A stretch of DNA of 9,217 nucleotides from Deltaproteobacteria bacterium RIFOXYA12_FULL_61_11 (lineage in GTDB: Bacteria; Bdellovibrionota_F; JAHFAK01; YA12-FULL-61-11), in the NCBI GenBank assembly GCA_001799195.1, contig MGSU01000152.1:1-9217 (forward strand), given 5' to 3'. Positions 1 to 8,111 of this stretch are shown here, in pieces. Below the pieces are notes generated by a model. It saw only the letters and a list, made by a program, of their open reading frames with translations. It was not told where the DNA came from and searched no databases. The translations under genes and the position numbers were made by a program. How positions within the stretch are numbered: position 1 is the first letter of the stretch; every line of letters begins with the position of its first letter.

Positions 1-343
1 CGCTCTGGTGCTTGTAGTACACCCATTTCTCGTGGACCGTACCTACCTTCTTGCCGTGGCTGATGATATCGCGTTCGATGATCTTCTCTTCGCCGAGAAT
101 CGGTTGAGTCATGAATTGGCCTTCTTTGCCGGGCCGTTCGTCGCGGATCACCAACACCGGGTATTTACTGCTCTTCCAAAGGCCGGGGTCGAAGCTGATG
201 CCGCGAACATAGGTCGAGCCGTTGTCCTTGATCTCCATGATTTTCCACTCACCGCCGACATGGGCCCAGCCCTTGAACGAGACCTGAGCCGCGAAGAGGT
301 TGCAACAGAACAAGAACATCATCAGGGTCGAGAACAGTTTCAT
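1..343 (-). CDS. Small secreted protein of unknown function, 3' end cut by window edge
   Basis: The minus-strand reading frame stays open for 114 codons from ATG 343-341 to the window edge, so the C-terminus is missing. It begins with a basic residue (MK) followed by a hydrophobic stretch (about residues 3-18, including Cys13-Cys14), which looks like a signal peptide. Cleavage near Ala18/Ala19 is likely, although the -3 position is not the usual small residue. The mature part is polar, rich in Lys, Glu, Gly and aromatics (GWAHVGGEW at 25-33), with no membrane segment or recognised motif. A strong Shine-Dalgarno GGAGG at 352-348 sits four bases before the ATG and supports this start. The gene lies 233 bp beyond the Cys-rich lipoprotein stop, so it may have its own promoter. 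I do not recognise the family; a periplasmic or secreted beta-rich protein is a guess. Confidence 0.72.
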   Translation of the reverse strand, partial: MKLFSTLMMFLFCCNLFAAQVSFKGWAHVGGEWKIMEIKDNGSTYVRGISFDPGLWKSSKYPVLVIRDERPGKEGQFMTQPILGEEKIIERDIISHGKKVGTVHEKWVYYKHQS

Positions 344-576
344 GGTGCCTCCATGGTTTGATGGACCTCGTGACTGATGCGGCGCGTTATGCACGCCCCA
401 TGCCAGGGGGAATGGTCGCGAAGGACCTCGATACCATTGAGTTATGAAGATGTTGAGTGGAGCCGCGGACCGGTGTGGTGTCATTGGTCGGAGCCATGGG
501 GCCAGAGCGGAACTGGCACGTCAACCACGGGGAGAAGGTGGGGCGGCCAGGAAGGGTCGGGGAGGTTGTTCGGGGA
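344..576. other. Intergenic gap between Cys-rich lipoprotein and small secreted gene
   Basis: This 233-bp stretch lies after the lipoprotein stop (TAG 579-577) and before the small secreted gene. I see no convincing rho-independent terminator: one short hairpin (GCCAG 501-505 with CTGGC 513-517, 7-nt loop) has no T run. A TTGACG lies on the minus strand at 524-519 but has no matching -10 at 16-18 nt. CATAAC (minus, 446-441) could be a weak -10. No RNA gene is evident. Confidence 0.5.
348..352 (-). promoter_or_regulatory. Ribosome binding site of the small secreted protein
   Basis: GGAGG on the minus strand ends four bases before ATG 343-341. It is a near-consensus Shine-Dalgarno and decides the start of the gene running off the left edge. 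Confidence 0.65.
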
Positions 577-2367
577 CTACTGTGGTTTCATGGGGTTGAA
601 AGCGCAGTGATGGTCGCCCAGCTCTTCGCCCCGAGAGTGCCAGGTGTCCAGTTTCCCCCAACAGGTCTTGCACCGTTCGGCCAGGGCTTCCCCCACGACG
701 AGGGTGCTCGTGAACTGCAGGTTGAAGCAGAGCGGCACCGTGTAGTAGGTGCACTCGGAGACTCCGCGAGCCCGGTCGAGCAACCCCTGACAGGTGACAT
801 CGATGCTGCAGGTGTTGCGCGAGGCCGCGTACATGCTCACACTCCAGGTCTCGCCCTCGTCGAAGCACTGACGGCATCCCATGCTGAGCTGGTTGTACTC
901 CAGGACCTCGGTGTCGAGGGCCTCGATGCACTCCGGGGTGTGATAGTAGTAGCATTTATCTTTGGTCATGGTCGCACCGCGATCCAGACCGAAACGAGCG
1001 GTGCAGCGTTCCCGGGGGGTGATCGGTCGACAGGTGTTGCCGCTGATCGAGGAGTAATCGAAGACCCAGGTCGTGGTCGGGATACCGTCGGGTGGACGAG
1101 CCCAACAGGCCAGACAGCGGTCGCGCAGATTCTCGGCCGTGGCCAGGTTGGTGTTGAAGACGTCGCGGAAACAGACCGGTTCGACGTACTGCAGACACTG
1201 GTGGGCGTTCTGATGTCGTCCGACCAACCCTTGACAGGTGACGTCCTCGGAACAGGCATTGGCGGTGAGCGTTTCGAGCGCGAAGGTCCAGGTTCCCTCC
1301 AGTTCGGTGCACTGTTCGCAGCGGTGGGTCAAAACATTGCCGTCGAAGGCTTCGTACCCGAAGTGTTCGGCGCAGACCACGTTCGAATAGGTCATGCAGG
1401 GGTTGGAATAGAGTCCGGGTTGGTCGTAGTAGAGCTTGCACAGCTCCCCCGGGGTCGGGTCGGGTGGAGGCGGAGGTGGGGTGTAACAGCGGTTCAGCTC
1501 GCGGGCGGTCGGGTCCGTGAACCAGGTTCCGCCGCCCTCGTAGCAGGTTATGCAGTCGCGCTTGAGTTGATCGGCCCCGGCCTCGTCGAGCCCGAGACTG
1601 CGCACGCAGTCCCAGGAAGCGTAGTGAGGACAGTAATCCTTGGACACGATGGTCGCGAGCAGCGAGGTGCACAGGCGCAAGATATTATTGACCTCGTCGA
1701 GTTGAGCTTCGGTCGGAGCAGGCGGTACCACCGCGGGAGGCATTAACTCGGGTTCGACGGTCGGGGGGGGCGTGGTCCCCTGCCCTCCGTCCGAGGTGGA
1801 CCCTGTGCCCGTGGTGCTCCCTGCGGCAGGGCCTGAGCCGGTGGAGGGTTCTGAACCGCCTTGGGGGGACGTTCCGTTCAGGCAGGTCGGGTCCGTGGTT
1901 GGGTCGAGTACGAATTGGCCTCCCTGTTGGAAACAACGCTGACATTGCTCTTTCACGTCGGCGACCTCGTTGGCATCGAGGATGGTCTGGCATTCGGCGG
2001 CGTTCAAGAAGAGGTGGTCGAGGGTACTGACGTCAATGCGGTCTCGATAGCACCCCAAGGCAGTGGTGTCGCCCGGGACTTCCTTCCAGGTTTTGCCCTG
2101 GGGACAGGTACACGGAGGGGTAGCCTGGGGGAGCCAGGTACCGTCCGTGGCCTGACAAGCTTGGCAACGGGTTTGGGCGTTCTCGGTAGCAGGCTGGTTT
2201 TTACAGACCTCGCTGAGCTGACCGAAGTTCACCGGAGGGGTGGTGCCGGGTTGGACCGGTGAGGTGGACGGATCGGCAGTATCGACGGCGATGCGGCGAT
2301 CGGTTTGATCCTGACAGGCAAGGAATGCGACGAGGATTGTCCCCGCGAGGAAGGAAGAACGCAGCAT
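577..2367 (-). CDS. Cys-rich repeat lipoprotein, 596 aa
   Basis: It probably encodes an exported lipoprotein. The N-terminus has a basic residue, a hydrophobic segment (residues 5-17) and a lipobox-like end FLA-Cys18; Phe at -3 is atypical. Two shorter Cys units follow (Cys55-Cys86 and Cys126-Cys162), then a Ser/Thr/Gly/Pro linker (about 163-228), then five full units starting at Cys233, 310, 378, 455 and 526. Each full unit has six cysteines in the pattern C-x12-16-C-x7-C-x17-18-C-x2-C, then a Trp (usually in GTW or TW), then C after 11 residues. Units 1-2 and 3-4 look like a duplicated pair. No catalytic motif is visible. Even cysteine numbers in an exported protein favour disulfide bonds, though metal binding through CxxC is possible. 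TGGAG lies seven bases before the ATG. The gene starts 64 nt after the glycosyltransferase and may be co-transcribed with it. Function is unknown; an outer-membrane or surface role is inferred. Confidence 0.88.
   Translation of the reverse strand: MLRSSFLAGTILVAFLACQDQTDRRIAVDTADPSTSPVQPGTTPPVNFGQLSEVCKNQPATENAQTRCQACQATDGTWLPQATPPCTCPQGKTWKEVPGDTTALGCYRDRIDVSTLDHLFLNAAECQTILDANEVADVKEQCQRCFQQGGQFVLDPTTDPTCLNGTSPQGGSEPSTGSGPAAGSTTGTGSTSDGGQGTTPPPTVEPELMPPAVVPPAPTEAQLDEVNNILRLCTSLLATIVSKDYCPHYASWDCVRSLGLDEAGADQLKRDCITCYEGGGTWFTDPTARELNRCYTPPPPPPDPTPGELCKLYYDQPGLYSNPCMTYSNVVCAEHFGYEAFDGNVLTHRCEQCTELEGTWTFALETLTANACSEDVTCQGLVGRHQNAHQCLQYVEPVCFRDVFNTNLATAENLRDRCLACWARPPDGIPTTTWVFDYSSISGNTCRPITPRERCTARFGLDRGATMTKDKCYYYHTPECIEALDTEVLEYNQLSMGCRQCFDEGETWSVSMYAASRNTCSIDVTCQGLLDRARGVSECTYYTVPLCFNLQFTSTLVVGEALAERCKTCWGKLDTWHSRGEELGDHHCAFNPMKPQ
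604..1671 (-). repeat. Five tandem six-cysteine protein repeats
   Basis: Unit limits (first to last Cys) are 1671-1486, 1440-1252, 1236-1030, 1005-808 and 792-604, a period of about 63-77 residues. The spacing C-x7-C and the C-x2-C...W-x11-C end are constant across all five. Units 2 and 4 are both entered through C-S-x-D-V-T-C-Q-G-L, and their DNA matches at 17 of 18 bases (1225-1242 against 781-798), 444 bp apart. This points to duplication of a two-unit block. Confidence 0.85.
1684..1881 (-). other. Low-complexity Ser/Thr/Gly/Pro linker in the Cys-rich lipoprotein
   Basis: Residues 163-228 of the lipoprotein are almost free of Cys and dominated by Gly, Ser, Thr and Pro. They separate the two N-terminal short Cys units from the five full repeats. 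A second short proline run (residues 297-302) separates full units 0 and 1. Such linkers are usual in surface proteins and could be glycosylated; the upstream glycosyltransferase makes that a thought, not evidence. Confidence 0.7.
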
Positions 2368-2431: not shown

Positions 2432-3415
2432 TCAGCGAGGAGAAAAGAGGTTGCGGCTCTGAGCCGGGGAAAGCCTCCTGCGTGCGTGGATCAGACCGCG
2501 TTTCCGGAGCATGCGCGGCACTAAACCGAGCAGCTCCGGCCAGGCCGAGAGGACCTCGGGTTCTCGGGCCAGCAGGTACGAGAGCGCGGGCAGCTCGAAG
2601 CGGAGCACGGGCCCGCAGTGACGCAAGATTTCGAGGGGATCGTCGTTCTTGAGGATCATCAGGTAGCGGTTGCGGTATTGGAGCCGCCGGAGCCGGCCGG
2701 GCAAAGACCGACGGGTGCGAGGGGCATAGGTGCGCAGGTGCCAGGCGGTGGCCCGGGGCGTGTACCCGGCGCGCCAGCCGAGTAGCCGGCAACGCCAGGC
2801 CAGGTCGACCTCTTCCCGGTAGATGAACATGTCCTCGTCGAAGACCTCGCCCACAATCGCTGCGTCCCGGAGCATGCTGCGGCGGTACAGGGGAGCGCAG
2901 CCGCTCACCCCGAAGGGTTCGGAGGTCTCTTCGAAGTGCCCCTCGGCGGGGAGGCCCTGGCCTCGATCGCGGTTGCGGCGATCGAGCAGCAGTTCCAGGC
3001 CCGTGGTGTCGATGAGGGGGCAGGGGGGCGGTTCGGCATCCACGTCCGACAGGGCCAGGATCTTGCCCTGCGCCATGCCCAGGCCGGGGTCGCGAAGGAG
3101 CAGGTCCAGCGTGGCGGCGACGTACTCGGGTCCGAGGAAGGCGTTGGCGTCACAGGACAGGTAGAACGGTTCGTCGGTTTTTGCCAGGGCGTAGTTGCGA
3201 CCGCCGGAGCAACCGAGGTTGCGTTCGCTGCGAAGGAGCGTGACCTCGGGGCCGAAGGTGCGACGGACGAAGTTGGCCGAGCCGTCGCGGGAACCGTTGT
3301 CGAGATAGTAGACGCGCACGCCGGGGTAGCTCTGTTCGAGACCGCACCGGAGGGAGCGATGGAGGAAGGCTCGCTCGTCGTGCCCGAGGACCACCAGGGC
3401 GACGGAGTCGCTCAT
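2432..3415 (-). CDS. Family 2 glycosyltransferase (rhamnosyltransferase-like), 327 aa
   Basis: It likely transfers a sugar from a nucleotide donor to a cell-surface glycan or other acceptor at the cytoplasmic face of the membrane. The GT-A fold signature is clear: beta strand VALVVLGHDE at 5-14, LDNGSRDGS at 38-46, NLGCSGGRN at 66-74 (the NxGxxGGxN motif of the WbbL-like branch), CDAN at 88-91 where the metal-binding Asp is expected, and DEDMFIYREEVDLAWR at 193-208 with the acidic catalytic region. A C-terminal basic region follows (RNRYLMILKND at 248-258). The classical DxD is not seen; Asp89 probably fills the role. I chose ATG 3415-3413, which overlaps the radical SAM TGA (ATGA) with AGGG upstream. 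The frame stays open back to 3676, but that extension is Arg/Pro-rich and lies inside the radical SAM gene. Length is normal for the family. Donor and acceptor cannot be read from the sequence. Confidence 0.9.
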   Translation of the reverse strand: MSDSVALVVLGHDERAFLHRSLRCGLEQSYPGVRVYYLDNGSRDGSANFVRRTFGPEVTLLRSERNLGCSGGRNYALAKTDEPFYLSCDANAFLGPEYVAATLDLLLRDPGLGMAQGKILALSDVDAEPPPCPLIDTTGLELLLDRRNRDRGQGLPAEGHFEETSEPFGVSGCAPLYRRSMLRDAAIVGEVFDEDMFIYREEVDLAWRCRLLGWRAGYTPRATAWHLRTYAPRTRRSLPGRLRRLQYRNRYLMILKNDDPLEILRHCGPVLRFELPALSYLLAREPEVLSAWPELLGLVPRMLRKRGLIHARRRLSPAQSRNLFSPR

Positions 3416-4881
3416 GCCCGATTGCCCTTGAACGTGGTCAGAAGATGTTGGGCGACGCCGAGAGGACCAACTCTCGTGAGGGCGCGGCGTGTTGCGTGGA
3501 ACAAGCCGTGCCGGCGGAGGTCGCGCAGGCCGCGGGAATGGTGTCCGAGATGGACCAGTCTTCGATAGACTGCATCGATGTCGGCCTTGGGGTAACCGGG
3601 GTACGAGACCACGGCACCGGATGAACCATCGTAGCGGCGCCAGTCGGTCGTCACGAGCCAGGAGTTCTTCCTGCACTGCTCGAAGAAGGGGGTGCCCGGT
3701 TGGGGGGTGCAGATCGAGACCTGCAGCTCGTCGACCAGACCGTGCTCCACCAGCTTGACCAACAGCTCGCCGGTCCTGAGATCAGCCTCGCGTTGGGAAC
3801 CCAACCCGCCCACGGTAAAGGTGCCGTAGACCGAAATGCCCTCATTTTTCGCCGCTTCAAGCACGGCCAGCAGGCGTTCCGGCATGTGCTTGTGCCCAAG
3901 CCGGTTGGCCTCGGCCACGGCGGGATCCGCGGTTTCGATGCCAAGCTTGAGCTGGCAGTAGCCTGCCCGACGCATGGCCGCAAGCACGTCCTTGTCGAGC
4001 CGGTGGTAGGCCGCCATGGCTGTGTGATGCAACGCCCCCAAACCCTCGGCTGTCATGCGGGCGCAAAGGTCGAGCGCTCGCCGTTTGTCGACCACGTGCA
4101 TCTCCTCGTCGAAGAAGAAGCCCTCGAAGCGGTCGTCGTAACGTCTCGCCAGGTGGAGGAGCTCGGCGACCACGTCGGCATTGTCGCGGGGACGCCAGTT
4201 CGGTTTTTGGTAATACGCATGCGCGGCGACGCAGAAAGAACACATCACCGGACAGCCGCGGCTGGCGTAGACCTGGAGCTGGCGGTAGCGGTGTCCGGGG
4301 AGAGGGCCGGCATACGCGAGCCGCGAGACGTCTTCGTCCTCGGGCCAGGGCAAGCGGCGCACATCGACCAGCGTTGCCGATCCGGGGTTTGGATAACGGC
4401 CGGGGAGGCCGGCCGGGTTCCTGCCGTGACAGAGAGCGCTGGTGAGATCGAGGAGGGCAGGCTCGTACTCGCCGCACAAGATGTGGTCGGCGTGCCGTGC
4501 GGCTTCGTTGGGAAAGGCCGTGGGGTGTTGGCCGCACAGCACGGTGATCGCGCCCGTGGCGCGCTTAACCCGATGCAGGACCGAACAATCTTCGGCAAAG
4601 GTACGCGAGGCGCTCTCCAGGACCAGGATCGCGGGAGCCTCCTCTGCGAGAATGCGAACATAGGCCGTTGCCGTGAGCGACTGCAAGCCGGCATCGACGA
4701 GCCGAACATTGGGGTGGAGGTCCCGCTTGAGCAGGGTTGCTGCGTGGCCGAGGTGGCAGGGGTAGAAGTGGAAGGGCGAGCGCGCGACGCTGGCCGCCCA
4801 GCGCGAAGGATAGTTGACGAGATAGCGGCCCGAGGCATCGCGGCCGATCGGGGTGCCGAGGACGATGCGCAGTCGTTTCAT
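3412..4881 (-). CDS. Radical SAM protein with N-terminal B12-binding-like domain, 489 aa
   Basis: It is a radical SAM enzyme that would cleave S-adenosylmethionine at a 4Fe-4S cluster. Residues 1-150 resemble a cobalamin-binding Rossmann domain (start KRLRIVLGTP, LVDAG at 61-65, ILVLES at 85-90, VLCGQHPTAFP at 114-124, CGEYE at 136-140). The cobalt-ligating DxHxxG motif is not visible, as in many members of this class. The radical SAM domain has Cys210-x3-Cys214-x2-Cys217, an FFFDEE strand at 255-260, GIETAD at 314-319 and CTPQPGTP at 391-398, all typical of the BchE/HpnR-like superfamily. Members methylate, cyclise or rearrange lipids, pigments, antibiotics or peptides; the substrate here is unknown. 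The start has no strong Shine-Dalgarno, but MKRLRIVLGTP is a natural beginning for the domain. Its TGA overlaps the glycosyltransferase ATG, so the two are translationally coupled and probably act in one pathway. Confidence 0.92.
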   Translation of the reverse strand: MKRLRIVLGTPIGRDASGRYLVNYPSRWAASVARSPFHFYPCHLGHAATLLKRDLHPNVRLVDAGLQSLTATAYVRILAEEAPAILVLESASRTFAEDCSVLHRVKRATGAITVLCGQHPTAFPNEAARHADHILCGEYEPALLDLTSALCHGRNPAGLPGRYPNPGSATLVDVRRLPWPEDEDVSRLAYAGPLPGHRYRQLQVYASRGCPVMCSFCVAAHAYYQKPNWRPRDNADVVAELLHLARRYDDRFEGFFFDEEMHVVDKRRALDLCARMTAEGLGALHHTAMAAYHRLDKDVLAAMRRAGYCQLKLGIETADPAVAEANRLGHKHMPERLLAVLEAAKNEGISVYGTFTVGGLGSQREADLRTGELLVKLVEHGLVDELQVSICTPQPGTPFFEQCRKNSWLVTTDWRRYDGSSGAVVSYPGYPKADIDAVYRRLVHLGHHSRGLRDLRRHGLFHATRRALTRVGPLGVAQHLLTTFKGNRA

Positions 4882-5167: not shown

Positions 5168-8002
5168 TTACCACTTCGGGATCCAGGTGTTACCCCAGGT
5201 GATGCAGTCGAATGCGGCCGGATCCAGGACGGCGGGGTTGTCGTCCTGCCAGTAGGTCGTGGTGTAGTAAAGGTCGAACTCATCGTAGGCGATGCAGGTG
5301 CCCATGGTCCACCACGGGTTGCAGCCTTCGGGTTGCCAGGTACCGCCTTGGGCATCGCACTGAGCGGCGGCGTCCCACGGGTAGCCCGCCATCTCGACGC
5401 AGGTTCCGGTCAGGTCGGATTGGCAGCCGCCGACCTCGGTGGTGCCGGCCCAGGTCCAGGTGCCGAACCACTGACACTCCTCGATGTCGTCGCTGACGTC
5501 GTTGAGGGTCGGGCCGTAGGTGTATTCGATCCGGAAGAAGACGTCCGGTTCGTTAAACTCAACACAGGCACCGTAGTGTGGCTCAGGGCAGGTATCGATA
5601 AGGATACCACCATCTTGTTGGCAGTCCATCGAGGGGTCGAATTCGTAGTAGAACTCGACGCAGTCGCCGGTCAGTTGCAGGCAGGCGCCGGTCGGGACCT
5701 GATCGCCCGACGGATCGACCGGGGGCTCTTCCCAGTACCAACTCATGAAGCTCCCGCCGAGGAGCGCACAGTCGGCCTCGTCTTCAGCTAAGGAAGCCGG
5801 GTCGCTGAGCAGGAAGTTGGCCATGGTGTCATTGGCCTGGTTGTAGAGCTTGCACTCGGCGATCACGCCGGTCCAGTCGCACCAGTCCACCAAGGTGCCG
5901 GAAGCTTGGTCACACGCTTCGGCAAAGTTGTAGGCCGAGTCGTTGGCCGCCATTTCGAAACAGCCGTCCGTGGTCTGGCAGGCGTTCCAGTACATGAAGG
6001 TCGGTGGCGGTTGTTCCCCGAGCACGTCCACCCAGAATTCCTGGGTCGTGGTGGCGCCGGTGTTGGGGTTCTTGGCCTGGAGGCGGAAGTTGCCGCCCCA
6101 GATGGTGTCGTCGCTGGGATCCGGGGTCCAGGTGAGCGTGGCGCCGTTGATCGCCGCGCCGGTCGGTCCCTCGAGCAAGTTGTACTGGAGGGTCGCTGCC
6201 GGGAAGTCCGGATCGAAGGCCTCGGCCGTGTAGGAGTAGGTCGCGCCGCGCACCACGTACCACGGATTGGGCCAGGTAATGAAGGAGAACTCGCCGTAGA
6301 TCGGCACGTTGTCCTCGAGCACGCGCAGGTCGAACTCTTGGGTGGCGATGGCGCCGTCCTCGGTACGCTCGACGCGGATCATGACGTGATGGTTCTGCAG
6401 GTCGGTCGGTGCGAGCGGCAGGAAGCTGACCTCGCCCCAGTTCCAGCTCTCGAGGCCGTAGGTACAATCCATCGGATTGGCATTCCAAAATGGGCAGACG
6501 TGCGTCATCGGGTGGGTGTCGACGTGATTGGGGTGCGTGGCCTCGACGGTCAGGACGTAGTTCTCGCCGTCGATCCAGGCGCCGTTCGGGTTTTCCGGGT
6601 CGAAGATATTCACCCAGTACCACCAATACCAGCCGGCGTTGGTCAGGAGCGGCGGCTGTGAGACGATGGCGAAGTTCCAGCTCGGGTCGATGACCTTGAG
6701 GGAGTAGTTCAGGTGGGCGACTTCTTGAGTCAGGGTGTTGGTGACCTTGACCTCGATCCAGAAGTCCTTGCCCGCGTCCTCGGCCTTGGGCACCCAGCGC
6801 AGATCGCCGGTGCGGGTGACGAACATGCCGTCCGGGCCGCTGGAGAGGTTGTAATTCAGGCCGAGGAAGGGCACGACCGGGTCGTCGAGCTTGGGATCCA
6901 GGGCCTCGATGTGGAAGAGATACTCTTCGCCGAGGTTGGCGAGCATCTGCTCGGGCGGTGGGAAGACCACGTGGAAGGTCTCCCAGGGAGCCGGACTATC
7001 GCAGATCCAGGCGCCGAACTCGTCGGTACAGCTATCCGGAACTTGATCTAGAGGATTGGGGCCGCAGGCCGAGTTCCAGGAGCCATTCTGGAGATAGCAG
7101 GAGGGCGGGATGTCGATGTTGGCGATATCGTCTTCCCAAGGTGCCGGACCAGCGCAGATCCAGTTCCAGTCCGCATCGTAGCAGGAGGTGTTCTGTTCCC
7201 ACGGGGTGTCATCACCGCAGGTCCAGTTGCCGTCGGCGTCAAAGCAGGTGTTCTGTTCCCAGGGGACTTCGTTGCCGCAGGTCCAGTTGCCCAACTCGTC
7301 GAAGCAGACGTCCTGCTGCCAGGGCGCGTCGTTCGTGAAGTCGGTCTGCCAGTCGGAGAACTCCTCCTGCCAGGGCGGAGTCGCGTCGCAGATCCAGGCG
7401 CCGGTGGCGTCGAGGCAGGAGGTATCCTCGGCGGTCACCATGATGCCGCGGGCCAGAAGGTCCCAGCGGTCGCCGTTCCAGATGTACGAGTTGCCCTTCT
7501 CGGTGTTGAAGTACGCCCAGCCCTCTTTCGGGTCGGCCGGGGCTTTGGCGAACTCGCCCTGCCACAGGACACCGGCCTTGCCCGGTTGCCCGTCTTGGCC
7601 CGGTTCGCCCTTGAGGAAGGAGACCTTCTCGGAATCCTCGCCCTCTTCGTTCTGGACGAAGAGCTTGTAGGTCACGCCGGCTTCGACGTCGCCGTTGAGG
7701 TAGGCTATGACGTCGCTGTTGCTGAGGAACTCCATGTCGAGGTCGATGCGGCCCTCTTCCTCCTCGAGCAGGAGGTAGGCTTCGGCCGGGACGAGGTAGA
7801 CGTCCATATCGTCGGTGAAATTCTCGCCCAGGACGAGGACTCCGTCTTTGACGTACTCGTCGGCGCCGTTGCCGACGATCTGGTCGATCGCGGGCGCGTC
7901 TTTGCTCTGTTTGTTGCCGTCATCATCGCTACCGCCCGGGATGACGGTACACGAGGTGAGCGCCAGCGTCGCGCTCAAAAGGAGCAGGACCAAGGTTTTC
8001 AT
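5168..8002 (-). CDS. Large multidomain Cys/Trp-rich lipoprotein, 944 aa
   Basis: It is exported and lipidated: MK, a Leu-rich segment, then a textbook lipobox LTS-Cys18. Modules in order: a TIG/IPT-like domain (about 37-130, VLGENFTDDM and YKLFVQNEEGE); four collagen-like Gly-X-Y triplets (132-144); a GWAYFNTEKGNSYIWNGDRW element (161-180) of the kind seen beside collagen-like stretches; six C-x8-C/PWE repeats (196-340); a putative Ig/cadherin-like domain (about 351-440); a Trp-rich region (441-565); a second Ig-like domain (566-662, YTAEAFDPDF and LTWTPDPSDD); and a C-terminal Cys-rich array with GGTW motifs (675-944). No enzyme motif is seen. I chose ATG 8002 because AAGGGGG lies five bases upstream and the signal peptide starts there; the frame is open to 8101. 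It diverges from the helicase and has its own likely promoter and terminator. A surface adhesion or matrix role is inferred from the modules. I do not recognise the whole protein. Confidence 0.92.
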   Translation of the reverse strand: MKTLVLLLLSATLALTSCTVIPGGSDDDGNKQSKDAPAIDQIVGNGADEYVKDGVLVLGENFTDDMDVYLVPAEAYLLLEEEEGRIDLDMEFLSNSDVIAYLNGDVEAGVTYKLFVQNEEGEDSEKVSFLKGEPGQDGQPGKAGVLWQGEFAKAPADPKEGWAYFNTEKGNSYIWNGDRWDLLARGIMVTAEDTSCLDATGAWICDATPPWQEEFSDWQTDFTNDAPWQQDVCFDELGNWTCGNEVPWEQNTCFDADGNWTCGDDTPWEQNTSCYDADWNWICAGPAPWEDDIANIDIPPSCYLQNGSWNSACGPNPLDQVPDSCTDEFGAWICDSPAPWETFHVVFPPPEQMLANLGEEYLFHIEALDPKLDDPVVPFLGLNYNLSSGPDGMFVTRTGDLRWVPKAEDAGKDFWIEVKVTNTLTQEVAHLNYSLKVIDPSWNFAIVSQPPLLTNAGWYWWYWVNIFDPENPNGAWIDGENYVLTVEATHPNHVDTHPMTHVCPFWNANPMDCTYGLESWNWGEVSFLPLAPTDLQNHHVMIRVERTEDGAIATQEFDLRVLEDNVPIYGEFSFITWPNPWYVVRGATYSYTAEAFDPDFPAATLQYNLLEGPTGAAINGATLTWTPDPSDDTIWGGNFRLQAKNPNTGATTTQEFWVDVLGEQPPPTFMYWNACQTTDGCFEMAANDSAYNFAEACDQASGTLVDWCDWTGVIAECKLYNQANDTMANFLLSDPASLAEDEADCALLGGSFMSWYWEEPPVDPSGDQVPTGACLQLTGDCVEFYYEFDPSMDCQQDGGILIDTCPEPHYGACVEFNEPDVFFRIEYTYGPTLNDVSDDIEECQWFGTWTWAGTTEVGGCQSDLTGTCVEMAGYPWDAAAQCDAQGGTWQPEGCNPWWTMGTCIAYDEFDLYYTTTYWQDDNPAVLDPAAFDCITWGNTWIPKW
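5171..5980 (-). repeat. C-terminal Cys-rich GxC...C..GGTW array of the 944-aa lipoprotein
   Basis: Residues 675-944 hold about six diverged units. Each opens with a Cys after Gly, often followed by VE or LQ (Cys774, 813, 868, 903), has a mid Cys (794, 843, 882, 933), and ends in a Gly/Thr/Trp motif such as QGGTW (885-889), FGTW or GNTW, usually with a closing Cys 5-11 residues later. Short (about 30-39 residue) and longer units alternate in the last four. The Cys-x3-4-GGTW element resembles the CxxC...GTW part of the repeats in the 596-residue lipoprotein. Confidence 0.65.
6983..7417 (-). repeat. Six C-x8-C/PWE repeats in the 944-aa lipoprotein
   Basis: Units begin at Cys196, 233, 253, 274, 302 and 325. 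The consensus is C-[FYLT]-D-x2-G-x-W-x-C, then about five residues, then PWE or PWQ. Unit 5 is diverged (C-x10-C, no PW). Units 2-4 are tightly packed at 20-21 residues. At DNA level a 17-bp block (7215-7231 and 7275-7291) and a 16-bp block (7186-7201 and 7246-7261) recur at exactly 60 bp, so this part expanded recently by tandem duplication. Confidence 0.88.
7571..7609 (-). other. Short collagen-like Gly-X-Y stretch
   Basis: Residues 132-144 of the 944-aa lipoprotein read as four Gly-X-Y triplets plus a closing Gly (GEPGQDGQPGKAG). This is too short for a stable triple helix alone. It probably marks a hinge or trimerisation boundary between the TIG-like module and the GWAYFN element. Confidence 0.6.
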
Positions 8003-8007
8003 GCATT

Positions 8008-8014
8008 CCCCCTT
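8008..8014 (-). promoter_or_regulatory. Ribosome binding site deciding the start of the 944-aa lipoprotein
   Basis: AAGGGGG on the minus strand ends five bases before ATG 8002-8000. An in-frame ATG further upstream (8101) has no comparable site and would put 33 residues before the signal peptide. Confidence 0.7.
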
Positions 8015-8048
8015 CTGTTGGAACTGTGCGAAAGAACCCACGGCGAGC

Positions 8049-8077
8049 ATGGTAGCGATCGACTGGAAGCCTGGCAA
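8049..8077 (-). promoter_or_regulatory. Candidate promoter of the 944-aa lipoprotein
   Basis: Minus-strand TTGCCA (8077-8072, five of six to TTGACA) and TACCAT (8054-8049, four of six to TATAAT) are separated by exactly 17 nt. The -10 ends 46 nt before the start codon. The shared regulator box starts 10 nt upstream of the -35. Confidence 0.4.
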
Positions 8078-8086
8078 GGAAAAAGA

Positions 8087-8111
8087 TTGCAAGCAAAACA
8101 TTATGTTGCAA
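8087..8111 (-). promoter_or_regulatory. Candidate regulator box upstream of the 944-aa lipoprotein
   Basis: It contains the dyad TTGC-AA-GCAA (8087-8096) and TTGCAACATAAT (minus strand, 8111-8100). Two copies of the palindrome TTGCAA (8087-8092 and 8106-8111) lie 19 nt apart. The same two elements occur before the radical SAM gene at the same distance from the candidate -35. Confidence 0.35.

Follow-up and report, generated by a model that had tools for sequence, protein, structure and literature searches.

Kazal-type serine protease inhibitor domains (PF00050/PF07648) carry a signature of six cysteines, with C-x7-C and C-x2-C spacings and a C3-x10-C4 interval that contains a tyrosine. Tandem cysteine-rich repeats are also found in Myxococcus TraA, in which nine repeat elements lie in a 71-Cys region proposed to act as a rigid stalk (PMC3325183). 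Here we describe a six-Cys repeat in a predicted lipoprotein; judged from its sequence, the repeat is real, is unnamed, and has so far been seen only in its source genome (4.64 Mb, 87% complete). It is new, though of a generally familiar kind.

The repeat lies in a gene within a 9,217-nt stretch of DNA (the window), to which all coordinates refer unless a contig (C66, C93, C112, C118, C133, C291, or C338) or other locus of the same genome is given (Table 1). Codon-position GC for the gene is 0.59/0.53/0.76, and a paralogue on C118 is in frame and 42% identical; of the 174 residues that the two have in common, 93 use different codons. The plus-strand open reading frame at 457-1746 was rejected: it overlaps this minus-strand gene and is read as a shadow frame due to the gene's high GC. 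By inspection only, the hydrophobic N-terminus ends in AFLA-C18 in the window protein and in LSLA-C17 in the paralogue, and the Cys18 context presumably agrees with the general lipobox rule. The putative lipoprotein may be exposed at the surface, but even one in the outer membrane may face the periplasm.

Table 1. Features of the Cys-rich putative lipoprotein gene and its product, in window coordinates
Feature	Position	Strand	Residues (aa)	Remarks
596-aa Cys-rich putative lipoprotein gene	577..2367	-		Lipobox ..AFLA-C18; ORF and translation
Putative lipidated Cys18, after signal peptide	2314..2316	-		Sequence
Module a, six Cys	2050..2205	-	55-106	C-x12-C-x2-C..GTW..C-x-C-P..W..G-C
Module b, four-Cys putative truncated unit without C1 and C2	1882..1992	-	126-162	
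Low-complexity Pro/Gly/Ser/Thr linker, module b to unit 1	1672..1881	-		Cys-free; sequence
Unit 1 (type A)	1486..1671	-	233-294	
Unit 2 (type B, first of first block)	1252..1440	-	310-372	
Unit 3 (type C, second of first block)	1030..1236	-	378-446	
Unit 4 (type B, first of second block)	808..1005	-	455-520	Modelled at pLDDT 86
Unit 5 (type C, second of second block)	604..792	-	526-588	

Directly upstream at 2432-4881 (-), and possibly co-transcribed, are genes for a family 2 glycosyltransferase and for a radical SAM protein that weakly matches B12-binding. A functional link to these neighbors was considered and set aside, as they are absent around the paralogue; since the two paralogues lie in different neighborhoods, context offers no functional clue. 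Downstream at 2-346 (-), a small exported-looking protein (MKLFSTLMMFLFCCNLFAAQ...) is cut by the window end and has no Pfam match.

An earlier note on this DNA had proposed five six-Cys units in the 596-aa lipoprotein, and we recovered them at exactly 604-1671 (aa 233-588), all five fitting C-x12-16-C-x7-C-x17/18-C-x2-C..W-x11-C; the strict pattern occurs five times in the real region and not once in 20,000 residue shuffles. The C-x7-C and W-x11-C spacings said to be invariant do hold in all five units, as does C-x2-C. Non-Cys identity between units inside the window protein is 14-26%. Alignment with the three units of the C118 paralogue gives an eight-unit consensus, C-x11-18-C-x2-Y-x4-C-x17/18-C-x2-C-...T-W-x11-C, in which only the six Cys, the Tyr, the Thr, and the Trp are invariant. 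There is no invariant His or acidic residue, and this restriction of invariance to Cys, Tyr, Thr, and Trp favors a scaffold over an active site.

Two Cys-containing modules precede the units. Module a is common to the window protein, the paralogue, and a lipoprotein on C291, and shows weaker similarity to the C93 lipoproteins described below. Module b resembles unit 1 (z 6.5) and unit 1 of the paralogue (z 7.9), with none of 1,000 Cys-fixed shuffles scoring as well, and we read it as a truncated copy of the unit from which both C1 and C2 are missing; the paralogue's own module b has a weak likeness to the unit (z 1.0 to 2.7). Besides the putatively lipidated residue, the mature window protein has 40 Cys, distributed as 6, 4, and 30 among module a, module b, and the units, and the paralogue has 28 (6, 4, and 18). 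Every module holds an even set, and the linkers have none. The earlier note had also pointed to a fixed even number of Cys in an exported protein, and this agrees both with the six per unit and with a genome that encodes an oxidative folding system. The genome yielded two hits to VKOR and, above the cut-off, four to the DsbA family; one VKOR-DsbA fusion, at C133:2249-3415 (+), was read through and scanned, a second is likely at C338:12107-13228 (-), judged by coordinates and frame spacing only, and two further DsbA-family matches are on C66 and C112. With DsbA and VKOR-DsbA enzymes encoded, disulfides in exported proteins are feasible.

Sequence comparison also gives the repeat a history. The note's observation that 17 of 18 bases match 444 bp apart (GTCACCTGTCA[A/G]GGGTTG) is correct, though the patch is small: DNA identity at this offset decays quickly and is at most 35/60 in 60-base windows, so the duplication is old. 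The two-unit block postulated on this basis does exist, but it comprises units 2-3 and 4-5 rather than 1-2 and 3-4, and the motif CSxDVTCQGL, said to enter the second units, is present and precedes units 3 and 5, which itself identifies the repeated block. In alignments in which the non-Cys residues were shuffled and the Cys fixed, unit 3 matches unit 5 with z=8.3 and unit 2 matches unit 4 with z=3.9, and block 2-3 matches 4-5 with z=9.5, against z=5.5 for block 1-2 with 3-4. The paralogue (425 aa) has the same N-terminal modules followed by three units of types A, B, and C, which is to say unit 1 plus a single block, and this further supports the 2-3/4-5 assignment. Its block is 41% identical to units 4-5 and 34% to units 2-3, whereas identity between units 2-3 and units 4-5 is only 29%, and the duplication is therefore probably older than the divergence of the window protein from its paralogue. 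One block was then probably lost in the paralogue, a reconstruction that draws on a small tree weakly supported at several nodes.

The same genome codes for other Cys-rich lipoproteins. The C291 lipoprotein (L019:2934-5441) shares with the window protein both six-Cys units and the N-terminal CxxC..GGxW..CxC module, of which it has four copies. Its two units are divergent; one was found by profile (E 5e-4), and the other was added by eye and hence has a later E-value that is not independent. The C291 protein differs from the window protein in having 67 Cys in its open frame, other Cys motifs mixed in, and no two-unit block. A further gene lies in the window at 5168-8101 (-). Its 977-aa product, a putative lipoprotein without a match in Pfam or NCBIfam, contains repeated PWExNTCFDxxGNWTC segments and a collagen-like GEPGQDGQPGKAG stretch, and its C-terminal part has motifs resembling C-x3-GGxW. 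Further Cys-rich putative lipoproteins are at L030:1756-3705 (-), L030:2-2182 (-), L041:1033-2268, and L042:1-2505; they have a different repeat of ~50 aa (C-x5-C..C..CCP..LN..C) and no credible match in Pfam or NCBIfam, and the C93 pair among them has 57 and 60 Cys in the open frames.

The absence of the repeat from named domains, as originally claimed, is borne out by searches of Pfam, NCBIfam, and PHROGs, in which neither the window protein nor its units have a credible match; a strong Pfam match to single units, which the note said would refute the claim, was found for none of the eight. PDB sequences also gave no credible match, the hit to myosin Va (E 0.065) being noise, and we found no description of the six-Cys repeat in the published literature searched. 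No convincing relative of the repeat was found in genome contigs (two scans), viral contigs, or plasmids, or in the 386 genomes of the relatives set, and it was not found in G001, the only other genome of the phylum in the searched set (n=2). A search of 195 genomes of another phylum gave nothing convincing, which is weak evidence, as that set had no positive control. Weak profile matches in G226 and G058 were dismissed, one being a cytochrome-like protein and the other an open frame of 45 residues.

Predicting the structure of one unit had been suggested as a further check, and AlphaFold2 gave a helical model of unit 4 (pLDDT 86.1, pTM 0.73) with helices at 15-22, 24-29, and 34-49, from a shallow alignment of five sequences, unit 4 and the other four window units. 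The other four of the five models of this unit have pLDDT values of 80, 70, 70, and 58, and with this spread of 58 to 86 the fold is probable, not certain; the unit is thus probably a three-helix domain. Fold comparisons of the unit model returned only noise, both for the PDB (photoproteins at E over 1; Sol i 2, Z 2.2) and for a viral fold library. A model of the whole protein from the single sequence is uninformative (pLDDT 36), and the disulfide-knotted rod suggested in the note is at this stage a possible shape only.

We propose that the window protein is a lineage-specific envelope lipoprotein built, in its exported part, as a chain of small disulfide-closed helical domains, which would form an extracytoplasmic scaffold or binding arm that resists proteases and might serve in adhesion, matrix, or recognition; we put the probability of the scaffold reading at roughly 0.6. 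The protein would be exported, lipidated at Cys18, and oxidized by the VKOR-DsbA or DsbA enzymes of the same genome; module a, module b, and the five units would each fold independently, the Pro/Gly-rich linker would join module b flexibly to unit 1, a Pro-rich linker would join units 1 and 2, and length would change through gain or loss of the two-unit block. The joint absence of C1 and C2 from module b makes a C1-C2 bond likely, with two further bonds among C3-C6. The scaffold interpretation is supported by five units with constant spacing that are absent from shuffles, by a paralogue that repeats the architecture with three units, by mature Cys that fall in even per-module sets and never in linkers, by the three-helical one-unit model, and by a genome with DsbA/VKOR enzymes and several other Cys-rich lipoproteins.

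Could the CxxC pairs instead ligate a metal or haem, making the units small metal-binding or electron-transfer domains? Every unit has C-x2-C, unit 3 of the paralogue reads CETCH, a haem-c-like motif, one of the eight units weakly matches a RING/U-box zinc domain (E 0.026), and the unit profile weakly matches a CxxCH-rich cytochrome-like protein (C203) via its CxxC. However, the CxxCH in each domain that marks a c-type cytochrome is found only in that one paralogue unit among the eight, the other seven, including all five in the window protein, lacking the His. With no His invariant, all six Cys conserved beyond the CxxC pair, and predicted export in a genome with DsbA/VKOR, we consider metal or haem binding improbable. 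Still less plausible, and in our judgment very improbable, is that the unit is a diverged Kazal-type domain. The Cys order, C2-x7-C3, and C4-x2-C5 are the same, and C5-C6 is ~18 residues in most units, but C3-C4 is 17-18 residues in the units as opposed to 10 in Kazal domains, and the invariant Tyr falls in the C2-C3 interval (C2-x2-Y-x4-C3), not in that from C3 to C4. The Pfam Kazal models match neither the whole protein nor any of the eight units at E<=10, an hhalign comparison with two Kazal sequences, itself thin, gave a probability of 2%, and the predicted unit is helical where Kazal domains have the inhibitory loop; no Kazal fold is among the fold matches listed for the model. We rejected a Kazal identity on the C3-C4 spacing, the Tyr position, and the HMM and profile comparisons.

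A reading that overlaps with the scaffold is that of a recognition or adhesion lipoprotein, whose repeats are diversifying binding domains and not spacers. The strong divergence of the units within a fixed Cys frame fits this, as does a genome carrying several different Cys-repeat lipoproteins, although the divergence may merely reflect age, and we regard the idea as doubtful. A little less doubtful, if still tentative and on balance unlikely, is the reading that the unit founds a new disulfide-stabilized three-helix fold and occurs alongside one or more other unnamed Cys repeats in a family of surface lipoproteins specific to this candidate phylum.

The window protein adds to the few disulfide-rich envelope repeats of bacteria a well-defined, unnamed six-Cys repeat whose duplication history can be read. 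It comes from a phylum with two genomes in the searched set, and from a genome that combines an unusual set of Cys-rich lipoproteins with VKOR-DsbA enzymes; others could annotate the repeat with a profile built from the ten units known so far. The NCBIfam search returned no model at all for the window protein (E<=10) or the paralogue (E<=1), and so none for TIGR04201, the TraA repeat model, provided that release 20.0 includes it. TraA differs from the window protein in its PA14 domain and MYXO-CTERM tag; the window protein shows a putative lipobox and matches no Pfam family. Both are nonetheless proteins of the cell envelope with tandem Cys-rich repeats, exported or, for the window protein, predicted to be exported, and the Cys-rich repeat region of TraA is the closest comparison for the window protein.
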